This document shows positions 6,000-19,812 of a DNA stretch of 64,000 bases, in pieces. Below the pieces are notes generated by a model. The model had not been told where the DNA came from, searched no databases, and saw nothing but the letters and a program-made list of their open reading frames with translations. The stretch is taken from NCBI RefSeq assembly GCF_021631985.1, contig NZ_CP070225.1:10664001-10728000 (forward strand), written 5' to 3'. Source of the DNA: Sandaracinus amylolyticus. GTDB taxonomy: Bacteria; Myxococcota_A; Polyangia; Polyangiales; Sandaracinaceae. The translations under genes were made by a program, and so were the position numbers. Numbering within the stretch: the first letter of the stretch is position 1; every line of letters starts with the position of its first letter.

Positions 6000-6850
6000 C
6001 ACGCGCTCTCTTTGCGCGCCACCGGTGCCGAAGAAAGGGCCGGCTCGGCGATCGCCTCGCCGGACAGCTCGATCCGCACCAACCGCTTCACGCTCTCGTG
6101 CCCGGCGAGGAACGGCGCGACGAGGCGCAGCGGACCGCCGTGCTCCGCGGGGAGCGGCGCGCCGTTCATCTCGAACACCAGCATCGTGCGCGGGTCGGTC
6201 GCGTGTCGGCGCGAGAGCGTGCGCTCGGCGCCGCCCGCGTGGAGCGTGATCGTCGCGCCGATTCCCCCCGCGAGATCGTCGATCACGTCGCAGAGCCGCA
6301 CGCCGCTCCACCGCACCGGGCGCGCGAACCCGAACATCATCGTCGTCACGTAGGTCGGCACGTCGCGGACCGCGTAGCGCGCGCTCAGATCCTCCGCGCT
6401 CAGCGCGACGACGCGCTCCGATGCGCGCGTCACCTCGAGGAGCGGCGCGTCGTGATCGCACACGATCGGACGGCTCGCGGTGAGCGCGCCCTCGGGCACC
6501 ATGCCAGGCTCGCTCGGCGTCACGTCGAGATAGACGTGCTCGCCGCGCACGTCGACGGGGAAGCGCGACACGCATCCCTTGTCGGGCGCGACCGCCGACG
6601 CGCTCGGCAGATCGATCTGCCAGCCGTGCATCGGGCACACGACGCGCTGTCCCGCGACGATGCCCTCGCTCAGCACGCCGCCCTTGTGGGGACAGCGATC
6701 GACGACTGCGAAGATCTTCCCGCTGCTGGTGCGGAAGACGGCGATCTCGACTCCGTCGATCGTCACCTGCCGGCCGCCCGACGAGGGGATCTCGTCCACC
6801 GCGCAGGCACGCACCCAGCGACGCTCGTCCATGCTCGCCTCGACGCTCAT
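5999..6850 (-). CDS. NirD-like Rieske domain fused to an oxidoreductase-molybdopterin-fold domain
   Basis: A 283-residue protein. Residues ~10-110 are a Rieske [2Fe-2S] domain with Cys53-Pro-His55 and Cys72-Pro-Met-His75, as in the nitrite reductase small subunit NirD. Residues ~145-265 resemble the sulfite-oxidase/YedY molybdopterin-binding domain (RWSGVRLCDVI, NGAPLPAEHGGPLRL, ESVKRLVRIEL). Where family members have the molybdenum-ligating Cys (roughly TLQCVGN), this protein reads TTMMFGFA, so the ligand appears missing. NirD is normally ~110 residues, so this is an unusual fusion. The start overlaps the nirB stop (ATGA) and the stop overlaps the nasA start. Probably a redox or structural partner of NirB; that role is inferred. 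Confidence 0.8.
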   Translation of the reverse strand: MSVEASMDERRWVRACAVDEIPSSGGRQVTIDGVEIAVFRTSSGKIFAVVDRCPHKGGVLSEGIVAGQRVVCPMHGWQIDLPSASAVAPDKGCVSRFPVDVRGEHVYLDVTPSEPGMVPEGALTASRPIVCDHDAPLLEVTRASERVVALSAEDLSARYAVRDVPTYVTTMMFGFARPVRWSGVRLCDVIDDLAGGIGATITLHAGGAERTLSRRHATDPRTMLVFEMNGAPLPAEHGGPLRLVAPFLAGHESVKRLVRIELSGEAIAEPALSSAPVARKESA

Positions 6851-9378
6851 GCCACCACCCTCAGCTTCAAGCGGAGCGGCGCGAACTCGCGCTCCATCTC
6901 CTCGTCGCCCGACTCCAGCTTCGTGACGCGCTCGCGCCACGGCTCGACGCGTGCGTCGAGCGCTTCCTCCATGCGATCGACCAGCGCCGCGCGGTTCTCG
7001 AGATCGTCGACCACGCGCTTGCGGATCGACTCGATGCCGACGCGCTCGACCCAGTGCGCCGTGCGCTCTCCGTACGTCGCATCCTCGCGGTAGAGCTGGA
7101 GGAACGCGGCGATCAGATCCATCGCCTCGTCGTCGGTCTCGACCTTCGCGAGCAGCTCGGCGGTGCGCACCTTGATGCCGCCGTTTCCGCCGACGTAGAT
7201 CTCCCACTCGGTCTCGCCCGCGATCAGCCCGACGTCCTTGACGAGCGATTCGGCGCAATTCCGGGGGCACGCGTTGACCGCCATCTTCACCTTGGCGGGC
7301 GTCCACAGGTTCTCGAAGGTGCGCTCGATGCGGATGCCGAAGCCCATCGAGTCGCGCGTGCCGAAGCGACACCACGTCGAGCCGACGCAGGTCTTCACGG
7401 TGCGGACGCCCTTCGCGTAGGCGAAGCCCGACGGCATGTCGAGCGCCTTCCACACCGCGGGAAGGTCCTCCTTCTTCACGCCGAGCAGGTCGATGCGCTG
7501 ACCGCCCGTGACCTTCACCGTCGGCACGTGGAAGCGCTTCGCGACCTGCGCGATGCGCATGAGCTCGTCGGGCGTCGTCACGCCGCCGTACATGCGCGGC
7601 ACGACCGAGTACGTTCCGTCGCGCTGGATGTTCGCGTGGACGCGCTCGTTCACGAAGCGCGAGCGCGGATCGTCCTCGTTCTCACCGGGCCACGCGACGG
7701 TCAGGTAGTAGTTGATCGCGGGGCGGCACGTCGCGCATCCGTCGCCGGTCCAGCCGAGCACGCTCATCGTCTCGCGCACCGACGTCAGGTGCTGCTCGTG
7801 GATCGCCTCGATCACCTCTTCGCGCGAGAGCGGCGTGCAGTCGCACAGCGTCTTCTTCGACGGCTTCGCGGCCACGTCGCCGTGCACGAGTCGGATCAGC
7901 GACTCGACCTGGGGCCCGCATCCGCCACACGAGCGCGATGCATTGGTGCACGCCGCGACTTCCTTGCGCGTCGTGAGGCCCTGGTCGCGGATCGCGCAGA
8001 GCACGGTGCCCTTCGCGACTCCGTTGCACGCGCAGATCGTCGCGCTGTCGGGCATCGCCGCGACGGCCGCGTCGGGCGAGGCCGCCGCGCCTCCCGCGCC
8101 CGCGAGCTCGGGGAAGAGGATCGCGGCGCGCGGCCCTTCGACGGTCGTTCCGCCCTTCACCAGCGCGTCGAGCGAGCCCGAGAGCGTCGCGTCGCCGACC
8201 AGCACCGCGCCGACCGCTCTGCCATCGCGGAAGAGCACCTTCTTGTAGACACCGGCGCTCGAGTCCTCGGCGCGCACGATCTCGCACGCTCCGTCGCCGA
8301 AGGGATCGCCCGCCGAGAACACGTCGACGCCCGACACCTTGAGCTTCGTCGAGACGACCGAGCCCTCGTATGCAGCGGTCGTCTCGCCCGCGAGGTGCGC
8401 GGCCGCGACACGGCCCATCTCGTAGAGCGGCGCGACGAGCCCGTAGCACAGGCCGCGGTGCTCGACGCACTCGCCGACCGCGTACACGTCGGGGTCCGAC
8501 GTGCGCAGGAAGTCGTCGACGAGCACGCCGCGGCGGCAGTCGATTCCCGCGCTCTTCGCGAGCTCCGCGTTGGGCACGATGCCCGCGGCCATCACCACGA
8601 TCTCCGCGTCGAGCGTCGTGCCGTCGGCGAAGCGCAGCCCGCGCACGCGACCTTCGTCGTCGGCGAGGATCTCCTCGGTCTTCTTGCCGAGCGCGACCTT
8701 CACGCCCTGCTGCTCGATCGCGCGTCGCAGGTACTCGCCGCCCGCTGCATCGAGCTGCCGCTCCATGAGCGTGGAGACGAGGTGCACGACGGTGACCTCG
8801 AGCCCGTGCGCCGCGAGGCCGCGCGCCGCCTCGAGCCCGAGCAGACCGCCGCCGATCACCGCCGCGCGCTTCGAGGTCTTCGCGCGGTCGATCATCGCGC
8901 CACAGTCCTCGTACGTGCGGAACACGTAGACGCCGTCGAGATCGCGTCCCGGCACCGGCAGCACGAAGGCGCGCGATCCGGTCGCGTAGAGGATCTTGTC
9001 GTAGGGCGCCTCGATCCCGTTCTCGCCGACGACGACGCGTCGCTCGCGATCGATGCGCGCGACCTTCGCGCCGAGGTGCAGCGTGATCCCGCGCTCCTCG
9101 TACCAGGCGTCGTCGTTGAGCACGACGTCGTCCCAGCCCTTCTCACCGAGCAGCACGCCCGAGAGTTGAATCCGGTCGTAGTTGGTCCGCGCTTCCGCCG
9201 AGAAGACGGTCACGTCGAAGCGCTCGGGCGCGCGCTCGAGGAGCGCGTCGAGGCAGCGAATGCCCGCCATTCCATTGCCGATCACCACCAAGCGCTCGCG
9301 CGAGCCCGTCCGGTCCAGTGCACGCATGGGCCGAACCCTTCCGGTTCCAGTTTTCGGCTGCGTTTCCGACGTGTTCAT
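6847..9378 (-). CDS. nirB: Nitrite reductase [NAD(P)H] large subunit
   Basis: An 843-residue cytoplasmic assimilatory nitrite reductase that reduces nitrite to ammonium with six electrons. Domain order: FAD and NAD Rossmann domains (LVVIGNGMAGIRCL; AAVIGGGLLGLEAARG), two BFD-type [2Fe-2S] segments (ICACNGV...CGGC and LCDC...CATC), a ferredoxin-like half domain, then the siroheme/[4Fe-4S] domain with Cys664-x5-Cys670 (CVGSTWC) and Cys704-x3-Cys708 (CPRNC). The length is usual for NirB. The ATG at 9378 has GAGGT seven bases upstream; the frame is open further but without an equally good site. First gene of the nitrate operon, divergent from the narK-type transporter. Confidence 0.92.
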   Translation of the reverse strand: MNTSETQPKTGTGRVRPMRALDRTGSRERLVVIGNGMAGIRCLDALLERAPERFDVTVFSAEARTNYDRIQLSGVLLGEKGWDDVVLNDDAWYEERGITLHLGAKVARIDRERRVVVGENGIEAPYDKILYATGSRAFVLPVPGRDLDGVYVFRTYEDCGAMIDRAKTSKRAAVIGGGLLGLEAARGLAAHGLEVTVVHLVSTLMERQLDAAGGEYLRRAIEQQGVKVALGKKTEEILADDEGRVRGLRFADGTTLDAEIVVMAAGIVPNAELAKSAGIDCRRGVLVDDFLRTSDPDVYAVGECVEHRGLCYGLVAPLYEMGRVAAAHLAGETTAAYEGSVVSTKLKVSGVDVFSAGDPFGDGACEIVRAEDSSAGVYKKVLFRDGRAVGAVLVGDATLSGSLDALVKGGTTVEGPRAAILFPELAGAGGAAASPDAAVAAMPDSATICACNGVAKGTVLCAIRDQGLTTRKEVAACTNASRSCGGCGPQVESLIRLVHGDVAAKPSKKTLCDCTPLSREEVIEAIHEQHLTSVRETMSVLGWTGDGCATCRPAINYYLTVAWPGENEDDPRSRFVNERVHANIQRDGTYSVVPRMYGGVTTPDELMRIAQVAKRFHVPTVKVTGGQRIDLLGVKKEDLPAVWKALDMPSGFAYAKGVRTVKTCVGSTWCRFGTRDSMGFGIRIERTFENLWTPAKVKMAVNACPRNCAESLVKDVGLIAGETEWEIYVGGNGGIKVRTAELLAKVETDDEAMDLIAAFLQLYREDATYGERTAHWVERVGIESIRKRVVDDLENRAALVDRMEEALDARVEPWRERVTKLESGDEEMEREFAPLRLKLRVVA

Positions 9379-9432
9379 TCGAGTGACCTCACAGTCGAGA
9401 ACGCGACAGGAGATCTCTGCGAAATCACATCG

Positions 9433-9449
9433 AAACGAAGAGAGTGCCA
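9433..9449 (-). promoter_or_regulatory. Imperfect sigma-54-like -24/-12 element upstream of nirB
   Basis: On the minus strand TGGCACTCTCTTCGTT lies about 55 bases upstream of the nirB ATG. The -24 half TGGCAC is perfect, but the -12 half reads GT where sigma-54 promoters need GC. Nitrogen-assimilation operons are often sigma-54 dependent and an NtrC-type activator is encoded at 57.5 kb, so this is recorded as a weak candidate only. Confidence 0.2.
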
Positions 9450-9509
9450 ATCACGACATCGGTGACGTCCTCACTGGACTGGCTCCGTCCAGGGCGGTAT
9501 TGCGTTTCC

Positions 9510-9528
9510 AACACGTTGCTCACGTGTT
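9510..9528. promoter_or_regulatory. Inverted repeat between nirB and the nitrate transporter, candidate operator
   Basis: AACACGT, five bases, ACGTGTT: a perfect 7-5-7 dyad in the 234-base divergent region between nirB and narK, about 85 bases upstream of the transporter start. Its symmetry and position suit a dimeric transcription factor controlling nitrate genes. The regulator is not identifiable from the site. Confidence 0.4.
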
Positions 9529-9612
9529 CAATCGCGCGTGGACGCATGCGCGAACGCGTCTTTCAACGCGCGCGACATCGTCCGGAAACCGAGCGCACGA
9601 AGCTTTGCGCGC

Positions 9613-10935
9613 ATGTCGACCGGACCCGCGACCGCGCTCCGACTGCGCGACTTCTCGTCTCCACCGATGCGCGCGTTCCACGTCACGTGGATCGCGTTCT
9701 TCCTCTGCTTCTTCGCGTGGTTCGCGACCGCGCCGCTGCTGCCGCTCGCGCGCGAGGCGCTCGCTCTGACGCAGGCGCAGATGGACGCGCTGCTGGTGGC
9801 ATCGCTCGCCACCACGATCGTCGCGCGCCCGGTCGTCGGATGGATCTGCGATCGCGTCGGACCGCGCCGCACGTACACCGCGCTGCTCGTGATCGCCGCG
9901 GTGCCGCTGCTCTGCATGCCGCTGGTCGATCGCTACGAGATCCTGCTCGCGCTGCGATTGCTCAACGGGCTCGCGGGCGCGTCGTTCGTCGTCACCAGCG
10001 TGCACACCGCGCGCATGTTCGCGCCCAACTGCGTGGGCACCGCGAGCGCGACCGCGGCGGGCTGGGGCAACCTCGGCGGCGGCGTCGCGCACCTCGTGAT
10101 GCCGTCGCTGCTCGGCCTGGTGATCGCGCTCGGCGCCGACGAGGCGTGGGGCTGGCGCTACGCGACGTTGATCCCCGGCGTGGCGCTGCTCGCGTGGTCG
10201 CTCGTGTACTTCACGTTCACGCAGGATCTGCCGGAGGGCGATCAGCTCGCGCTCACGCGCGAGGGCAAGTACGTGCGGCCGCCGCCGAAGGCGCTGCTCG
10301 CGCTCGGTCGTGATCCGCGGGTGTGGCTGCTCGCGCTGCAGTACGGCGCGTGCTTCGGCGTGGAGATCGCGCTCGAGAACGCGGCGACGCTCTTCTTCCG
10401 CGATCGCTTCGCGCTCTCGCTCGCGACCGCGGGCGTGGTCGCGGGGTGCTTCGGCGGGGTGAACATCTTCGCGCGCGCGCTCGGCGGGTGGCTCGGTGAT
10501 CGCGCCGGCGGACGCGCCGGTCTGCGCGGCCGTCTCGCGCTGCTCGCGATCGTCCTCACGGTCGAGGGCGCAGCGCTGGTGCGGCTCTCGACGCTCCAGA
10601 GCGTCGAGGGTGCGGTCGTGGTGTTCGTGTCGATCGGTCTGTTCGTCGCGATGGGCGCGGGCGCGACCTATGCCGCGGTGCCGCTCCTGCACCCCAAGAC
10701 GATGGGGGCGGTGAGCGGCTGGGTCGGCGCGGGCGGCAACCTCGGTGCGGTCGCGGCGGCGGTCGCGCTCGGCTCGGGGCGCATGCTCGACGGAAGCGCG
10801 TTCCTCACGATCGGGATCGGGACGATCGCGCTCGCCGCGCTCACGCCGATCGTGATCGCGATCGACTCGAAGGCCACGGTCCCGGAGAGCGAGCCGATGC
10901 CGCTCCCGGTGCCCGCCGACGACGTGGCGGAGTGA
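9613..10935 (+). CDS. narK: MFS nitrate/nitrite transporter, NarK/NasA type
   Basis: A 440-residue major facilitator protein with about 12 hydrophobic segments. It carries the nitrate-nitrite porter signature GWGNLGGG at residues 150-157 and the second-half counterpart GWVGAGGNLGAV, plus the MFS loop GWICDRVGPRR. It imports nitrate (possibly in exchange for nitrite) across the inner membrane for the divergent nitrate reduction operon. I chose the ATG at 9613; the frame is open from 9538, but the added residues are a basic, non-hydrophobic stretch. It is a single-domain transporter, not a NarK1-NarK2 fusion. Confidence 0.88.
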   Translation: MSTGPATALRLRDFSSPPMRAFHVTWIAFFLCFFAWFATAPLLPLAREALALTQAQMDALLVASLATTIVARPVVGWICDRVGPRRTYTALLVIAAVPLLCMPLVDRYEILLALRLLNGLAGASFVVTSVHTARMFAPNCVGTASATAAGWGNLGGGVAHLVMPSLLGLVIALGADEAWGWRYATLIPGVALLAWSLVYFTFTQDLPEGDQLALTREGKYVRPPPKALLALGRDPRVWLLALQYGACFGVEIALENAATLFFRDRFALSLATAGVVAGCFGGVNIFARALGGWLGDRAGGRAGLRGRLALLAIVLTVEGAALVRLSTLQSVEGAVVVFVSIGLFVAMGAGATYAAVPLLHPKTMGAVSGWVGAGGNLGAVAAAVALGSGRMLDGSAFLTIGIGTIALAALTPIVIAIDSKATVPESEPMPLPVPADDVAE

Positions 10936-12414: not shown

Positions 12415-12744
12415 TCAGGGGACCACGACGCCGCACTCCGATGGCTCGCGCAGCGGTGTGGACCCGGGGGGCGGCGGCGGGACGCCGAACGGGCGCAGGT
12501 ACACGCGGTCTTCGCGGACGTGGCACGCGGCGCAGGGCGCGCGGTCGACCCCGATGCACGCCGCCTGATCTTCCGTGAGCTCGAGCTCGCCGAGGACGCC
12601 CGCGTCGGGCTCGTCCTCGGTGCGCGCAGCGTCGCGCCCGCCGTCCCGCTGCGCGAGCGCGTCGAACGAGCGCGCACAACCGAGCGCCGTCACCGCGAGC
12701 ACGAGCGCGAGCCATCGTGATCGAGCGAGCACGGTCGCGAGCAT
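12415..12744 (-). CDS. Small lipoprotein with one Cys/CxxCH/poly-Pro module
   Basis: A 109-residue predicted lipoprotein: hydrophobic leader then a lipobox-like ALGC with Cys23. After an acidic linker comes one module: Cys63, Cys71-Ala-Ala-Cys74-His75, then LRPFGVPPPPP and a closing Cys104. CxxCH is the c-type haem attachment motif, but no axial ligand or cytochrome fold is evident in so short a protein, so metal or disulfide roles are equally possible. It lies 12 bases after a paralogue carrying two copies of the same module and is probably cotranscribed. No known family recognised. Confidence 0.65.
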   Translation of the reverse strand: MLATVLARSRWLALVLAVTALGCARSFDALAQRDGGRDAARTEDEPDAGVLGELELTEDQAACIGVDRAPCAACHVREDRVYLRPFGVPPPPPGSTPLREPSECGVVVP

Positions 12745-12756
12745 CGCACGAGACGA

Positions 12757-13278
12757 TCAGAGGCACTCCTCGACGGGCGTGAGGCCGGTGTCGGGCGGCG
12801 GCGGGGGCACGCCGATCGGGCGCAGCACGAGCACGTCGTGGCGTCGGTGGCAGGCCGTACACGGCGGCCGATCGATGCCGAGGCACGCGGCCTGCTCGTT
12901 CGTGAGCACGATCTCGGACGCGGGATCGAGCGGCGGCGGGGGCGGCGGGTCGGGGATCTCGACGCAGCCCGGGGGCGGCGGCGTGAGCGGGACGACGTGC
13001 GTCGGGGGCGGCGGCGGCCCCGATGGCCGCAGATAGAACGTGCCCTCGCGCAGGTGGCACGACGCGCAGACCGGCTCGGCGAGGCCGATGCACGTCGCCC
13101 GCTGGGGATCGAGCGGGTCCTCGCCGAGCGCGAGGTCGCCGGGCCCCGCGTCGTCGCACGTGGTGGCCGCGTCGTCGCGGCCCTCGAGCTCGTGGCCCGG
13201 CGCGGGCCGCTCGGTGCTGCGCGCGCACGCGGTCAGCGCGAGAACGAGCATCCACGCGGCGGTGGTTCGTCGCATCAT
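12757..13278 (-). CDS. Lipoprotein with two Cys/CxxCH/poly-Pro modules
   Basis: A 173-residue predicted lipoprotein with lipobox-like LTAC (Cys18). Module 1: Cys63, Cys71-Ala-Ser-Cys74-His75, FYLRPSGPPPPP, Cys105. Module 2: Cys132, Cys140-Thr-Ala-Cys143-His144, LVLRPIGVPPPPP, Cys172. The two are linked by a proline tract. Each follows the pattern C-x7-CxxCH-x(28-29)-C with a conserved LRPxGxPPPPP core. Start: the ATG at 13278 lies nine bases after GAGG; an ATG at 13284 is possible. First gene of a two-gene unit, divergent from an ECF sigma gene. Function unknown; a di-haem or metal-binding surface protein is a guess. Confidence 0.65.
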   Translation of the reverse strand: MMRRTTAAWMLVLALTACARSTERPAPGHELEGRDDAATTCDDAGPGDLALGEDPLDPQRATCIGLAEPVCASCHLREGTFYLRPSGPPPPPTHVVPLTPPPPGCVEIPDPPPPPPLDPASEIVLTNEQAACLGIDRPPCTACHRRHDVLVLRPIGVPPPPPDTGLTPVEECL

Positions 13279-13309
13279 CGTCATGAGCCTCGGGCACTCG
13301 GCCGCGCTC

Positions 13310-13352
13310 GAACGGCTCACGAGATCGCCCGTCTCGCGAAGATGAGCCGTTC
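13310..13352. promoter_or_regulatory. Nested inverted repeat in the divergent region upstream of the ECF sigma gene
   Basis: GAACGGCTCA at 13310-13319 pairs perfectly with TGAGCCGTTC at 13343-13352. Inside, CGAGA (13320-13324) pairs with TCTCG (13332-13336). This stem or dyad sits in the 226-base divergent region between the CxxCH lipoprotein operon and the sigma factor operon. It could be an operator shared by both units or a leader hairpin. No coding sequence is evident in this gap. Confidence 0.45.
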
Positions 13353-13504
13353 TCGCCCGCTCGTGCGCCTCACGTGGAGGCTCGCAGATCCCAAGCGAAA
13401 TTCTCTCCGTGCCTGCTCTGCCCATCCGACGCCGACGACTGCCGACAGGTGCACGCCCCGAGCGCGCGTCGGGCACCGTCGCGCGCGTCGAAGGATCGCA
13501 GCCG

Positions 13505-14050
13505 GTGTCCGACGCCGAGCTCGTCGTGCGCGCGAGCGGCGGCGATCGCTGGGCACAGGAGGCGATCTTCCGGCGCTACGTCGCGGACGTGACGTCGCTC
13601 GCCGAGCGCTTGCTTCGGCGTCGCCACGAGGCCGACGACGTGGTGCAGGACACGTTCGCCGACGCGCTCCTCGCGCTCGGCGAGCTGCGCGATCCGAGCG
13701 CGCTGCGCGCGTGGTTGCTCGGCATCGCGGTGCGCCGCGTGCGCCGCCGGGTGCGCAAGCTCGCGCTGCTGCGCACGCTCGGGCTCGACCGCGGGATCGA
13801 CGACGCGACGCTCGAGCTGCTCGCGTCGCCGGGCCTCTCGCCGGACACGCGCGCCGAGCTCGCGCGGGTCGATCGCGCGCTCGCGCTGCTGCACCCCGAC
13901 GATCGGATCGCGTGGATGCTGCGGCACGTCGAGGGCGAGAAGCTCGAGGACGTCGCGGCGATCGCCGGGTGCTCGCTCGCGACGGCGAAGCGACGCATCG
14001 CGACCGCCGAGACCCTGGTGCGCGCACGGCTGCGAGGAGCGGAGCCGTGA
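13505..14050 (+). CDS. ECF-type RNA polymerase sigma factor
   Basis: A 181-residue sigma-70 family protein of extracytoplasmic-function size. Region 2 (AIFRRYVADVTSLAERLLRR then EADDVVQDTFADALLAL) binds core polymerase and the -10 element. Region 4 near the C terminus has the helix-turn-helix EKLEDVAAIAGCSLATAKRR. The GTG at 13505 has AAGGA upstream and gives the usual start SDAELV; the frame is open from 13409. The stop overlaps the next gene's GTG by four bases (GTGA), so sigma and FecR-like protein are probably made together. Confidence 0.85.
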   Translation: MSDAELVVRASGGDRWAQEAIFRRYVADVTSLAERLLRRRHEADDVVQDTFADALLALGELRDPSALRAWLLGIAVRRVRRRVRKLALLRTLGLDRGIDDATLELLASPGLSPDTRAELARVDRALALLHPDDRIAWMLRHVEGEKLEDVAAIAGCSLATAKRRIATAETLVRARLRGAEP

Positions 14051-15246
14051 GCCTGCCCGAGCGCATCCGCGACGTGCTGGAGCGTGCGGACGACGAGTCG
14101 CGAGTGCGCCGAGCGTGGGAGGGCACGCGCGCGCGCATCGCGACGCGCGAGGGACGCCCGTGGCGGGCGCCGATCGTCGCAGGCGCGATCGGGGTCGCTG
14201 CGGCTGCGGTGCTCGCGCTGGCGCTCGTGCCGCGCGATGTGACGCCGCCGGCGGGGGGCAGAGAGCCGGCGCCGCGCGCGGAGGCGACGGGCCCGCTGCG
14301 GCTCGACGATGGCGGGCTGCCGATCGCCACCGAGGCGATCGCCTCGCCGCGCGCGCTCGTGCTCTCGGACCGCTCGCGCATCGAGCTCGCGCCCGGCGCG
14401 CGCATCGTGCCGCGCGCGAACGATGGTGCGCAGCTCGGTCTCGCGCTCGAGCGCGGGCGCGCGCGCTTCGAGGTCACGCCGGGTGGGCCGCGCGCCTGGA
14501 CGATCGACTGCGGGCCGGTGCAGGTGCGCGTCGTCGGGACGGCCTTCGTGATCGATCGCAGCGAGGCGCGGATCCGCGTCGACGTCGAGCGGGGGCGCGT
14601 GCGCGTCGAAGGCGTCGCCGTGCCGGACGGAGCGCGTGTGCTCGACGCAGGAGCGTCGATCGAGGTGGATCTCGCGCGGCCGAACGAGCCCTCGCCGCCG
14701 CCGATCCTCGCGGAGCCCGAGATCGTCGCCGTGGCGCCGCCTCGCGTGCGCGAGCCGGCGGCGCGTGCTCCGAGCCGCGTGTGGCGAGAGATGGCCGAGC
14801 GCGGCGCGCATCGCGATGCGTACGACGCGCTCGCCATCGAAGGCGGTGTCGCTGCGAGCGCGTCGCGCGCGTCGCCGGACGACCTGCTCTTGCTCGCCGA
14901 CGTCGCGCGCCTCTCGGGCCACCCCGAGGACGCGGTGCCTCCGCTCGAGCGGCTGATCGGCGCGCACCCCGACGCGCCCGAGGCGCCGCTCGCCGCGATC
15001 ACGCTCGGTCGCATCGAGCTCTCGCTGGACCGTCCCGCTCGCGCTGCGCGTGCCTACGAGCGCGCGCTCGAGCTCGGTGTGCCGCGCGTGTTCGACGCCG
15101 AGGTGCGCGCGGGCCTCGCGCTCGCGCGGGCGCGTGCCGGCGATGTCGAGGGTGCAGCGAGCGCCGCGCGCGAGTGTCTCGCGCGCCATCCGTCTCCGCC
15201 TCACGCCGACGCGCTCCGCGTGCTCGCCGAGCGCGGACCGCGGTGA
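14047..15246 (+). CDS. FecR-domain protein with C-terminal TPR-like repeats (anti-sigma/sensor type)
   Basis: A 399-residue protein. The cytoplasmic N terminus (~1-40) could hold the sigma partner, followed by one membrane helix at about 43-62 (AGAIGVAAAAVLALALV). A FecR-like beta domain lies at about 95-205 (VRVVGTAFVIDRSEARIRVD, VERGRVRVEGV), and the C terminus (~270-395) has TPR-like helical pairs. FecR proteins relay envelope signals to their ECF sigma factor; the four-base overlaps on both sides support a functional trio. A zinc-finger anti-sigma motif is not visible. Confidence 0.8.
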   Translation: MSLPERIRDVLERADDESRVRRAWEGTRARIATREGRPWRAPIVAGAIGVAAAAVLALALVPRDVTPPAGGREPAPRAEATGPLRLDDGGLPIATEAIASPRALVLSDRSRIELAPGARIVPRANDGAQLGLALERGRARFEVTPGGPRAWTIDCGPVQVRVVGTAFVIDRSEARIRVDVERGRVRVEGVAVPDGARVLDAGASIEVDLARPNEPSPPPILAEPEIVAVAPPRVREPAARAPSRVWREMAERGAHRDAYDALAIEGGVAASASRASPDDLLLLADVARLSGHPEDAVPPLERLIGAHPDAPEAPLAAITLGRIELSLDRPARAARAYERALELGVPRVFDAEVRAGLALARARAGDVEGAASAARECLARHPSPPHADALRVLAERGPR

Positions 15247-16196
15247 GGGTGCTCGCGCTCGCTCTCGCGTGCACCGCGCTCACGATCGCGCCGCGTGTCC
15301 GCGCGCAGCACGCCGAGGTGGTGATGCCCGCGTGCGCACCGTCCTGGTGGGACGAGGCGGGTCTGCGCGACGCGGTCGACGTCGAGCTGCGGGGTGCGAG
15401 CGCGCGCGTCGAGCTCGAGGTCGAAGCGCCGTGCGAGGACGGCGTCGTCGTCGTGGCGCACGTGCACGACGACGACCGAGCCCTGATGCGGCGCATCGAG
15501 CTCGCGGACGTCGCACCGGCGATGCGCGCGCGTGCGATCGCGATGGCGCTCGCGTCGGTCCTCGCCCAGCCGCGCGAGGTCGTGGTGGCGCCGCGCGAAG
15601 ATGGGCCCGCCGCGGCGGCGTCGAGGGCGCGCGTCGAGCTCGGCGATCCCGTCGCGACCGAGCCCGCGATCGTGCCGACGGCGGTCGATGCCCCGGTCGG
15701 GCTGGTGCTCGCGGGCGTCGCCGCGCTCGCGCCCGCATCCTCCAGTGTCTGGGGCGGGCCACGCGCCGGCGTGCTCGCGCGCATCGCGCCGCCGCTGCAC
15801 CTCGTCGCCGGCGTGGAGGCGCTCTTCACGACGCGCGGCGATCCGCTCGGCGAGGTGCGCGGCACGTGGATCCACGGCGCGATCGGCGCGGGGCTCGAGG
15901 CGTCGCTCGCCCCGCTGCGGCTCGGCGGGTCGCTCGCGCTCGGGCTCGGTTGGGCGCAGCTCGAGGGCGAGGGATCGAGCTCCGACGTGATCGCGCGGCG
16001 CAGCGACGGCGCGATCCTGACGTTCGACGCCGGCCTGCGCGGCGCGCTCGATCTCGATCGCGCGATCGCGATCGTGCTCGGCGTCGAAGCGCGCCTCGTC
16101 GCGCTCGGGCTCGAGGCGCGATCTCCGACCGGCGCCGTCATCGCGCTCCGCGATGCCGTGGTGGCGGCGCAGCTCGGGATCGAGCTGCGCCTCTGA
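15243..16196 (+). CDS. Exported protein, probable outer-membrane beta-barrel, of the sigma/FecR operon
   Basis: A 317-residue protein with a signal peptide (VRVLALALACTALTIAPRVRA, cleavage before Gln). The first ~130 residues form an alpha/beta-looking domain. From about residue 155 to the end, short alternating hydrophobic stretches rich in Gly and Leu end with IELRL, a pattern typical of small outer-membrane barrels. The start GTG overlaps the FecR gene stop by four bases. It is likely the surface component served by the sigma/FecR pair; that is inferred from the operon. The stop lies three bases from the convergent neighbour. Confidence 0.65.
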   Translation: MRVLALALACTALTIAPRVRAQHAEVVMPACAPSWWDEAGLRDAVDVELRGASARVELEVEAPCEDGVVVVAHVHDDDRALMRRIELADVAPAMRARAIAMALASVLAQPREVVVAPREDGPAAAASRARVELGDPVATEPAIVPTAVDAPVGLVLAGVAALAPASSSVWGGPRAGVLARIAPPLHLVAGVEALFTTRGDPLGEVRGTWIHGAIGAGLEASLAPLRLGGSLALGLGWAQLEGEGSSSDVIARRSDGAILTFDAGLRGALDLDRAIAIVLGVEARLVALGLEARSPTGAVIALRDAVVAAQLGIELRL

Positions 16197-16199
16197 CCC

Positions 16200-18755
16200 T
16201 CACCGCCGCCTGCGGCGTCCGATCACCAGCACGATCGAGAGCGCGACCAGCATCGCCGACGTGGCGCCGCTCGAGCGATCCGCCGCGGTGCGGCACGCGC
16301 ATCCACCGGCGTTCGGGTTCGGGATGCCGCGGATCAGCGGGAGCGTGGCGACGCCGACGTTCCCCGCCTCGTCGATGACCTCGACGTCCACGTCGCGGCC
16401 GTCGAGCACCAGCGCATCGGGCACGTAGCGCGCGTCGTTCGACCACGGCGACCACTGCGTCGCCGAGGAGGCGCCACCGCGCACGCGGAATCGATATCGC
16501 AGCGCGCGCGAGCCCGTGACGATGTCGCTCGCGCTCGCGACGTACGCCGTGCCCTCGGGCAGCCGCGAGAGCTGCACGACCGGCGGGATCACGTCGACGA
16601 TCAGCGTGGTGCGCGCCGGCGTGGGATCGGCGCTGCGCGCGTCGCCCGCGATCCGGGCGCGGGCCTCGATCTCGTGGCGGCCCTGGAGGAGCAGCAGCGG
16701 ATCGTCGATGCGCACGCGCGGCGTGCTCGACCACTCCGACCACGTCGAGCCGTCGACGCGATGGCTGTACTCGTACTCGGTGCCCGGCTCCGCGCCCGCG
16801 CCGTGCAGGTGCAGCCACGCGCTGTTGCCTTCGCCGGTCGCGAACTGCTCGAGCGTCATGCTCTCGCGATCGAGCTCGAGATCGCTCACCTCGACGCGGG
16901 TGTCGATCGCGGCGCGCAGCGCGCTGTCCGCGAGGCGCAGGTTCGCGAAGATCCCGAGGAAGCGCTCGCCGTCCTGGTCGACGCCACGCACGCCCTCCGG
17001 CGGCACGTCGAGCTCGAAGCCCATGATGTCGGGCAGCGAGATCGGCGGGATGACGCCCGCGAGCATGCCCGCGACGTTCGGCACGAGACGACCGAGCGCG
17101 GTCGCGAGCATCTCGGGCGACTCGATCAGCATCTCGCTGTTCGTCACCACCGGGTTCGCGACGTCGACGCTCGCGACGCGCAGCACGATCTGTCCGCCCT
17201 CGACCGCGATGCCGAGGTGGATCGAGAGATCGCTCTGGAACGTCATGAAGCGCACGTAGCGCTCGGTGCTCCACACGTAGAAGTCGATGCGCAGCTCGGG
17301 CAGCGTGACCGTGAGCTGCGGCTCGGTCTCGGAGAGGGTGAAGTCGGGCGACCGCTGCGGGCGCAGCGCGAGCATCAGCGGCGCGCTCTCGGAGGGGAAC
17401 GCGAGCGAGCGCAACGATCCCGCGATCGCGGAGACGAGCCCGGTCGAGAGCAGCTGCGAGAGCCGCGTGCCCGCCGCGAGGCAGAGCATGCCGCTGTCGA
17501 ACATCCCGTAGCCCGCGTGATCGAGGAAGTCCTCGGCGATGCCGATCCCGAGGTGGGTCTCGATGTCGGTGCCCGGGATCACGTTCCCGCGGAACGCGTC
17601 GACGCGCGCGATCTCGGGGAGCGAGGGCGGCTCGAGCGCGGGCACGCACACCGCGTGTCCCGGCGTCGTCTCGAACCCGCGATCGAACGACATCATCCCG
17701 CCCGAGAGGAAGACGGTCATGCCCTCGTTCACCGCCTCGCCGTCGCCGCCCGCCGCGAGCGAGAACTGCAGCGAGCCGTGGGTGCCGGGCGAGAACCCAC
17801 CGAGGAGCTGTGCGCCGAGATCACCGCGCCCTTCGAAGCCGAGCAAGGTGGGCACGCACTCGTCGGGCCCTTCGCTCGGCGGCGCCGCGTCGTAGTAACA
17901 GATCGCGTCCGCCGCGGTGTCGCCGCGATCGTGCGTGCCGGTCGGGCATCCGAGCTCGCCGCGGCGCGTGCAGAGCTGCTCCGAGAGCGCGCCGTTCAGG
18001 AGGCCCTGCACCGCGTTCGTGATCGTCCCCGCGATCGCGCCGCGCACGAGATCGGTGTTCGCGATGCCGCACGCGATCGGTCCGCCGTCCCACCAGTTCA
18101 GGTACGTGATCGAGAAGTCGTTGGGCTCGACGCCCTCGTCCGGGTCGACGCCGATCGACTTCACCGCGAGCTTCGTCGCACCGGCGCGCGCCTCGCGATC
18201 GATCTCCTCGAGCGCCAGCTCGGCGCGCACGCCGACGTAAGGTCGCGAGCCGCCGCGCGTGTCGATCGTCAGGAGGCACTCCGACGCGAGCACGCGCACC
18301 TGCCACGCGGCGAGCACGCCCGTCTCGTCGCGGCTCTCGGCGATCGCGCGCACGTGCGCGTTGAGCTGGTTCGTGCCCTCGACCGGCTCGAGATCGAGCG
18401 ACTCCACCTCGATGTGCGCGAAGCAGTCGGTCGCGCCGTCGCCCGCCGTCGGATCGGAGCTGCAGATGATCGCAGCGCCCTGATCACCGCGCTCGACCGG
18501 GAAGTCGAGGCCGTCGGGCAGCACGCGCGGCAGGATCGCGCCGACGTTCTCCTCGATGAACGCGATCGCGCTCGACGAGAGGCGCACCTGCGCCGCGTTC
18601 GGGATCTGCTGCGCGAGCGGGAAGCCGCCTGGAATCGGCGCGATGCCGCACCCCGCGCATCCCGAGCAGCCACCACCGCTGCACGCGAACGTCGCGAACA
18701 CGAGCAGCACCACCAGCGCGGAACGAAAGAAGGAAGAAGAGAAGCGCTTCGGCAC
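16200..18755 (-). CDS. Large surface protein with lipobox-like N terminus and MYXO-CTERM-like C terminus
   Basis: An 851-residue protein. The GTG at 18755 lies five bases after GAGGT and starts a signal segment ending FATFAC, followed by the very Cys/Gly-rich SGGGCSGCAGCG. The body is long and beta-rich with scattered Cys pairs. Near the C terminus an Ig-like segment (DVIPPVVQLSRLPEGTAYV) precedes the tail: GGCAC, a hydrophobic helix MLVALSIVLVI, then GRRRRR, the tripartite pattern of MYXO-CTERM proteins. Having both an N-terminal lipidation-like Cys and a C-terminal anchor is unusual. The body family is not recognised. A strong dyad sits directly upstream of the start. Confidence 0.75.
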   Translation of the reverse strand: MPKRFSSSFFRSALVVLLVFATFACSGGGCSGCAGCGIAPIPGGFPLAQQIPNAAQVRLSSSAIAFIEENVGAILPRVLPDGLDFPVERGDQGAAIICSSDPTAGDGATDCFAHIEVESLDLEPVEGTNQLNAHVRAIAESRDETGVLAAWQVRVLASECLLTIDTRGGSRPYVGVRAELALEEIDREARAGATKLAVKSIGVDPDEGVEPNDFSITYLNWWDGGPIACGIANTDLVRGAIAGTITNAVQGLLNGALSEQLCTRRGELGCPTGTHDRGDTAADAICYYDAAPPSEGPDECVPTLLGFEGRGDLGAQLLGGFSPGTHGSLQFSLAAGGDGEAVNEGMTVFLSGGMMSFDRGFETTPGHAVCVPALEPPSLPEIARVDAFRGNVIPGTDIETHLGIGIAEDFLDHAGYGMFDSGMLCLAAGTRLSQLLSTGLVSAIAGSLRSLAFPSESAPLMLALRPQRSPDFTLSETEPQLTVTLPELRIDFYVWSTERYVRFMTFQSDLSIHLGIAVEGGQIVLRVASVDVANPVVTNSEMLIESPEMLATALGRLVPNVAGMLAGVIPPISLPDIMGFELDVPPEGVRGVDQDGERFLGIFANLRLADSALRAAIDTRVEVSDLELDRESMTLEQFATGEGNSAWLHLHGAGAEPGTEYEYSHRVDGSTWSEWSSTPRVRIDDPLLLLQGRHEIEARARIAGDARSADPTPARTTLIVDVIPPVVQLSRLPEGTAYVASASDIVTGSRALRYRFRVRGGASSATQWSPWSNDARYVPDALVLDGRDVDVEVIDEAGNVGVATLPLIRGIPNPNAGGCACRTAADRSSGATSAMLVALSIVLVIGRRRRR

Positions 18756-18763
18756 GAGGTACC

Positions 18764-18797
18764 TCGTTGCTTCGGACAAACTTTGCGGAAGCAACGA
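18764..18797. promoter_or_regulatory. Perfect 10-bp inverted repeat in the leader of the MYXO-CTERM gene
   Basis: TCGTTGCTTC at 18764-18773 and GAAGCAACGA at 18788-18797 form a perfect dyad with a 14-base spacer. It ends nine bases before the GTG of the minus-strand surface protein gene. It could be an operator or an RNA hairpin in the leader that hides the ribosome-binding site. Confidence 0.45.
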
Positions 18798-18813
18798 ACT
18801 CGACCACGCGAGA

Positions 18814-18826
18814 TGACCCTTGGTCA
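18814..18826. promoter_or_regulatory. TGACC-N3-GGTCA palindrome in a divergent promoter region
   Basis: TGACCCTTGGTCA lies between the divergent genes at 18755 and 18874, 17 bases from the larger dyad. On the minus strand it also offers TTGACC, a good -35 hexamer, though no convincing -10 follows. Recorded as a possible operator or promoter element. Confidence 0.25.
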
Positions 18827-18873
18827 ATAGGGGGCCGGTCGATCGTGCACACGCGGCTCCTAGATGGCCCGTC

Positions 18874-19812
18874 ATGGAGACCCTCGACGTCGAACGCACC
18901 GTGGATCGCTGGCGCGAGCACGCGTGGCCCGCGATTCCCCTCGCGTCGTGGCAGCCGACCTACGAGACGCTCCATCGCTTCACGCAGGTCGTCGGCAAGA
19001 TCCGGCTCGGCCTCGCGCCGCCGCGCAACCACTGGTGGCACGTGCCGCTCTACGCGAGCGCGCGCGGGCTGACGACCTCGCTCGTGCCCTATCGCGGCGG
19101 CGGGCTGCAGCTCGACTTCGACTTCGTCGATCACCGGCTGCGCATCGCGACGACGCTCGGCGAGACGCGCGAGATCCCGCTCGCGTCGCAGACCGTGGCG
19201 CGCTTCTACGATCGCGTGATGCACGCGATGCGCGAGCTCACGTGCGACGTCGCGGTGTGGAGCACGCCGGTCGAGGTGGAGGACCGCACGCCCTTCGAGC
19301 TCGACGAGACGCACTGCACGTACGACCCCGACGCGGCGGCGCGCTTCTGGCGCGCGCTGGTGTCGGCGCAGGGCGTGATCGACGCGTTCGAGTCGCGCTG
19401 GGTCGGCAAAGTGAGCCCGACTCATTTCTTCTGGGGCGCGTTCGATCTCGCGAGCACGCGCTTCTCGGGGCGCACCGCGCCCGAGCACCCGGGCGCGCCG
19501 AACGTCGCGCGCTTCGTGGCGATCGAGGCGTACTCGCACGAGGTCTCGAGCGTGGGCTTCTGGCCCGGCGGCCAGGACCTCGACGCGGCGTTCTACGCGT
19601 ACGCGTACCCCGAGCCCGCCGGATATCGCGATGCGCCGGTCGAGCCGCGCGAGGCGTTCTACAGCGACGCGCTGCGCGAGTGGATCCTGCCCTACGAGGC
19701 GGTGCGCCGGTCGCGCTCTCCGGAGCGCATGCTCACGCGCTTCTGCGAGACGACGTACGCCGCGGCGGCGACGCTCGGCGAGTGGGATCGACGCGCGCTC
19801 GAGCGTGCGTGA
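18874..19812 (+). CDS. DUF5996-family protein
   Basis: A 312-residue cytoplasmic protein with the hallmarks of DUF5996: an early WQPTYETLHRFTQVVGKIRL segment, NHWWHVPLYASARGLTT, LDFDFVDHRL, and near the C terminus FWPGGQDLDAAFYAYAYPEP followed by AFYSDALREWILPYE. No enzymatic function is established for the family to my knowledge. The ATG at 18874 is preferred to the in-frame one at 18820 because family similarity begins shortly after it. The downstream aminotransferase starts 48 bases later on the same strand, so the two may be cotranscribed. Confidence 0.82.
   Translation: METLDVERTVDRWREHAWPAIPLASWQPTYETLHRFTQVVGKIRLGLAPPRNHWWHVPLYASARGLTTSLVPYRGGGLQLDFDFVDHRLRIATTLGETREIPLASQTVARFYDRVMHAMRELTCDVAVWSTPVEVEDRTPFELDETHCTYDPDAAARFWRALVSAQGVIDAFESRWVGKVSPTHFFWGAFDLASTRFSGRTAPEHPGAPNVARFVAIEAYSHEVSSVGFWPGGQDLDAAFYAYAYPEPAGYRDAPVEPREAFYSDALREWILPYEAVRRSRSPERMLTRFCETTYAAAATLGEWDRRALERA

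Follow-up and report, generated by a model that had tools for sequence, protein, structure and literature searches.

Bacillus cytochromes c-551 (CccB) and c-553 are small lipid-anchored mono-haem cytochromes c whose haem domains span at least about 70 residues, carry a Met as the distal ligand and match Cytochrom_C families. Microperoxidases and Ccm-matured CxxCH peptides, which are engineered or proteolytic (Braun and Thony-Meyer 2004, cited in PMC3601427), combine a minimal CxxCH polypeptide, expected to receive haem from System I (Ccm), with a vacant distal site. System I reportedly needs little more than an exported CxxCH and accepts almost every such site, and a passage in PMC6962350 describes as a hypothesis that it tries to attach haem to whatever CxxCH Sec delivers. 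In the window, the whole stretch of 64,000 nucleotides of myxobacterial DNA that was analysed, two adjacent genes encoded lipoproteins (A and B) with Cys/CxxCH modules. Translation agreed with a preliminary description of the locus in yielding three such modules, two in A and one in B. The lipobox, the tether and the single CxxCH per domain were shared with the Bacillus proteins, but the module comprised only about 45 residues, lacked the Met ligand and matched no family. With the microperoxidases it shared the minimal CxxCH polypeptide and the apparently vacant distal site; unlike them, it was encoded in the genome as a natural, conserved domain and had two additional Cys. The module was real, previously unlisted and narrowly distributed, so far in one order of myxobacteria. 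On balance, it appears to represent a new order-restricted family of minimal, disulphide-stapled mono-haem-c domains on a lipid tether, and we group it with the lipid-anchored c-haem proteins, as a variant of these, rather than with the class I cytochromes.

Genes A and B were both located on the minus strand (Table 1). They are probably cotranscribed, since B started 12 bp downstream of A. The ATG at 13282–13284 was taken as the start of A (in-frame alternatives end at 13278 and 13275), and the stop codon of B abutted that of a convergent LysR gene. The module cores were CIGLAEPVCASCH...GC and CLGIDRPPCTACH...EC in A and CIGVDRAPCAACH...EC in B, and all three modules followed the pattern C-x7-CxxCH-x(6-7)-LRP-x-G-x-PPPP...C, with five prolines directly after the Gly in A1. 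The preliminary description had given the same C-x7-CxxCH and LRPxGxPPPP(P) form, which stood in all three, but had set the closing Cys 28–29 residues after the CxxCH His; the distances were 30 (A1), 28 (A2) and 29 (B) residues, a range of 28–30. The three modules were 39–63% identical to one another. Mature B contained a single His, that of the CxxCH, and neither Met nor Lys. Mature A had an additional Cys24 without an obvious partner and an odd number of non-lipid cysteines, and therefore not all of them can pair.

Table 1. Positions in the window of the lipoprotein genes, their modules, the divergent operon and the intergenic repeat.
Feature	Coordinates	Strand	Details
Lipoprotein A, 175 aa, two modules	12757–13284	minus	Signal peptide, lipobox LTA/C (residue 20)
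Lipoprotein B, 109 aa, one module	12415–12744	minus	Signal peptide, lipobox ALG/C
Module A1, CIGLAEPVCASCHLREGTFYLRPSGPPPPPTHVVPLTPPPPGC	12964–13092 (residues 65–107 of A)	minus	Profile E 8e-21, dN/dS 0.05
Module A2, CLGIDRPPCTACHRRHDVLVLRPIGVPPPPPDTGLTPVEEC	12763–12885 (residues 134–174 of A)	minus	Profile E 6e-22, dN/dS 0.19
Module B, CIGVDRAPCAACHVREDRVYLRPFGVPPPPPGSTPLREPSEC	12433–12558 (residues 63–104 of B)	minus	dN/dS 0.12, AlphaFold2 mini-domain
Perfect 10-bp inverted repeat, GAACGGCTCA-N23-TGAGCCGTTC	13310–13352		Between the A/B operon and the divergent ECF sigma gene
ECF sigma factor (Sigma70_r2, Sigma70_r4_2)	13409–14050	plus	Divergent from A/B
FecR-domain protein, C-terminal TPRs	14050–15246	plus	

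A profile of 12 modules produced strong matches (E 4e-17 or better, down to 1e-24) in seven genomes from six genera and three families, all within the order of the window; the next match was at about 1e-4. The seven were the genome of the window (G000; 10.96 Mb, two contigs), a second genome of its genus (G181; 10,327,335 bp, one contig), G175 and G178 of the same family, G021 and G047 of a second family and G058 of a third. No strong match was obtained in the remaining genomes of the class (317 genomes) and of a 377-genome sample of the phylum. Weak matches (E 1e-4 to 1e-2), read one by one, were not accepted as members: they came from chance frames or from cytochromes with two or more haems and had at most the CxxCH stretch in common with the module. 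The next-best matches, non-homologous by score, fell for the most part on CxxCH sites in larger multi-haem cytochromes, where a comparable CxxCH-x(n)-G-x-x-L-x-P stretch occurs. Relatives without the Cys/His pattern, which the preliminary description had regarded as counting against its reading, were looked for as well; profile searches of the order, class and phylum samples returned none that lacked the CxxCH. At the DNA level, the strict pattern C-[hydrophobic]-G-[hydrophobic]-x2-P-x-C-A-x-C-H was searched over 84,980 species genomes. It occurred on the MAG contigs JAPPOT010000043, JAUHXR010000162, JAEPMI010000001 and JAHBWH010000022, all of them known members, and the fifth match was a chance frame of 29 aa. 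No further family member emerged from the strict pattern in these genomes or from a relaxed one, and a single-protein scan of the 84,980 genomes with B returned nothing. The species search covered many, not all, species and scored a limited number of candidates per genome; the absence of the module outside the order is provisional. No description of the module was found in a literature search.

Eight residues were invariant in all 12 modules: the first Cys (C1), a Gly, both Cys and the His of the CxxCH, an Arg, a Pro and another Gly. C1 was situated eight residues before the CxxCH, and the closing Cys (C4) followed the CxxCH His by 27–33 residues across the family. C4 was near invariant in the alignment and present in 12 of 12 modules by eye, with the gap in G021 attributable to an alignment shift. 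Modules that were not orthologous were mostly 28–63% identical. The poly-proline run, earlier regarded as part of the core, fell outside it, as relatives ranged from PPPP down to PS. All eight distinct proteins (lipobox assigned by inspection) had the same architecture, a short lipoprotein with a lipobox Cys, an Asp-, Gly-, Pro- and Ala-rich linker and a C-terminal module; the CxxCH of every one of the 12 modules lay within a lipobox-bearing protein. Four single-module relatives, in G178, G047 (two proteins) and G175, had one further Cys upstream and another at the C-terminus, always as a pair, which is what an additional disulphide would predict. The label of a tandem family did not survive the comparison, with single-module lipoproteins the rule. 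In the best tree of the short module sequences the two G047 proteins, 78% identical, grouped together, which places tandem duplication as separate events in G047 and in the genus of the window.

The A/B pair was syntenic in G181, at the same place. The A ortholog had an identical length (overall dN/dS 0.20), and the B ortholog was 88% identical. Between G000 and G181, dN/dS was low in all three modules (Table 1) and about 0.5 in the signal and linker, on few substitutions; the module thus reads as the constrained part and the linker as relaxed and fast-evolving. Chance was excluded as the origin of the modules by their mutual identity, the synteny of the trio in G181, the gap in profile E values and the low dN/dS. 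The motif-core DNA pattern had zero matches in 100 shuffles of the window.

The preliminary description had called the module unrecognised and without an obvious axial ligand, and both statements held against the Pfam and NCBIfam libraries, PDB sequences, PDB folds and the family alignment. Nothing in Pfam or NCBIfam exceeded the cut-off. The best library match, Paired_CXXCH_1 (PF09699), covered 9 residues at 15.1 bits (gathering threshold 20.6) and had the CxxCH in common, but the doubled CXXCH with the spacing of that family was absent here. Class I cytochrome c was rejected as an identity after testing both profile match and distal ligand: neither Cytochrom_C nor Cytochrome_CBB3 matched across the haem domain (the lowest E value, 0.08, came from a single one of the 12 members), and no Met, second His or Lys was available in mature B, nor was a His, Met or Lys outside the CxxCH conserved in the family. 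A group of Polyangiales di-CxxCH proteins (L114–L133, CTGCxxAPCxxCH type) has an N-terminal cytochrome c domain and a second site that takes the form C-x7-CxxCH in most of them, with C-x-G and P before the CxxCH. Unlike the module, they have a long domain, a DUF1924 match and a conserved downstream HP. The profile–profile alignment extended over 22 columns at 50% probability, and these proteins are possible distant relatives.

AlphaFold2 predicted a compact fold for the 58-residue B domain (pLDDT 84.8, pTM 0.70), confidently in two models (84.8 and 83.6) out of five, the remaining three scoring 64–69. The model consisted of a strand, a helix bearing C1, the CxxCH turn, the LRP strand and a short C-terminal helix. 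Foldseek found no PDB relative of it, which for a model of 58 residues is weak evidence. The model of full-length A had a pLDDT of 43.6.

Genome G000 encoded CcmC-like, CcmE, CcmF/NrfE-like and CcmH proteins. Haem c is the simplest reading of the site, because the CxxCH is on an exported protein, is invariant over six genera and occurs in a host that encodes Ccm genes. Separately, on contig C1 of the same genome, a lipoprotein (L085) with a variant haem motif of the C-x4-CH type (CSFASCHGGAG) was encoded immediately upstream of the CcmF gene at approximately 9224327. The preliminary description had left the choice between a redox (haem) and a metal protein open. Haem c is favoured here because the host has the proteins of System I, for which almost every exported CxxCH is reportedly a substrate, and we regard it as likely to be preferable to metal at this site. 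As read from the lipobox, each lipoprotein would be exported by Sec and then lipidated on its first Cys, and a flexible Asp/Pro/Ala tether would carry the C-terminal module (two in A). System I would attach one haem per CxxCH, and a C1–C4 disulphide would close around the haem-bearing loop. As the CxxCH His is the only possible His, Met or Lys ligand in mature B, the haem iron of B would be five-coordinate, weakly ligated, or ligated by a Cys or a partner protein. With its haem exposed to solvent, such a protein could serve as an envelope-tethered one-electron relay, a microperoxidase-like catalyst, a ligand sensor or a gas- or peroxide-binding haem. A narrower form of the haem c reading is attractive but tentative, and we would not yet put it ahead of its negation: a natural, conserved microperoxidase-like domain family, close to the minimum size for a genetically encoded c-haem module, in which the chain supplies no distal ligand of its own, one disulphide holds the domain and a lipid tether carries it at a Polyangiales-type envelope. 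Against haem c in general, no Pfam, NCBIfam or PDB family backs a cytochrome assignment, electron-transfer cytochromes seldom lack a conserved distal ligand, the cysteines of A cannot all pair, and only a minority of the structure models were confident. Gene context pointed to no redox partner, as no neighbouring gene was common to the genera.

The same lack of a conserved axial ligand and of a cytochrome family match would suit a structural mini-domain, with C1–C4 and CxxC disulphides and a structural His, that forms a haem-free binding or spacer head on the lipoprotein. Four conserved Cys in an exported protein and the compact strand-helix-strand model obtained without a cofactor are consistent with it. 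Yet the His directly after the second Cys of the CxxC was invariant in 12 of 12 modules, which disulphides do not need, and an exported CxxCH in a cell bearing Ccm is expected to gain haem; we consider this explanation unlikely, at roughly a one-in-a-few level of belief. A His/Cys-ligated haem c as in SoxA, TsdA and DsrJ, with C1 or C4 as a distal thiolate and low-potential or sulphur-compound chemistry, is improbable. C1 and C4 were the only conserved candidate ligands besides the CxxCH His, and among PDB sequences, none of which matched the module profile significantly, the best was a SoxA chain (E 0.055, non-significant). This match was confined to the CxxCH neighbourhood, however, no Sox or Tsd genes were present among the neighbours examined, and the paired extra Cys in four relatives favour disulphides. 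Binding of a metal (for example Zn, Cu or Fe) through the four conserved Cys and the His is very improbable, given that metal sites built from free thiols are uncommon in exported proteins, that the C-x7-CxxCH module had no match among Pfam or NCBIfam families and that haem loading of the CxxCH would compete.

The ECF sigma factor gene divergent from A/B may have its true start at a GTG near 13506, and the FecR/TPR protein encoded after it is likely its regulator. The third gene of this operon (15240–16196, plus strand) encoded a protein of 318 aa without a Pfam match that was conserved in G181. Also conserved in G181 was a lipoprotein-like protein of 899 aa (16200–18899, minus strand) with a Cys cluster, C-SGGG-C-SG-C-AG-C-G, after the lipobox Cys; its C-terminus resembles a MYXO-CTERM-type sorting signal (GCAC...hydrophobic...RRRRR), and no Pfam match was above the cut-off. 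Downstream of B, the convergent LysR regulator was followed by genes for a thioesterase, an MFS transporter and a large NAD(P)H nitrite reductase-like protein (6847–10935; Pyr_redox_2, Fer2_BFD and NIR_SIR domains) beside the transporter. Lying two genes away from the lipoproteins, this region resembles a cluster for nitrate/nitrite assimilation.

The gene context of A/B was the same in G181. The other five genomes with the module had no neighbouring gene in common with it, and ECF sigma/FecR genes were not found around the module there. The link to an ECF sigma operon, proposed earlier as belonging to the family, is thus a genus-level one, as the context was common only to G000 and G181. GAAC resembles the −35 element of many ECF promoters. 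On the plus strand of the repeat region a CGTC followed GAAC by approximately 16 bp, and a matching −10 element was absent on the other strand. The inverted repeat occurred once in G000 and once in G181, at the corresponding locus, and a further 181 genomes of the order lacked it; the surrounding 105 bp were likewise well conserved. The repeat is a candidate shared promoter/operator of the divergent operons, and in the genus of the window the A/B pair may be transcribed together with the neighbouring ECF sigma/FecR stress circuit.

If the module is not loaded with haem, it would represent a CxxCH that is exported in nature yet bypasses System I, challenging the view that CxxCH alone suffices. 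If it is loaded with haem, it would reveal how little sequence a c-haem domain needs in nature, would equip myxobacteria with a small tethered haem whose coordination site is open, and would also name a family absent from current profile libraries.
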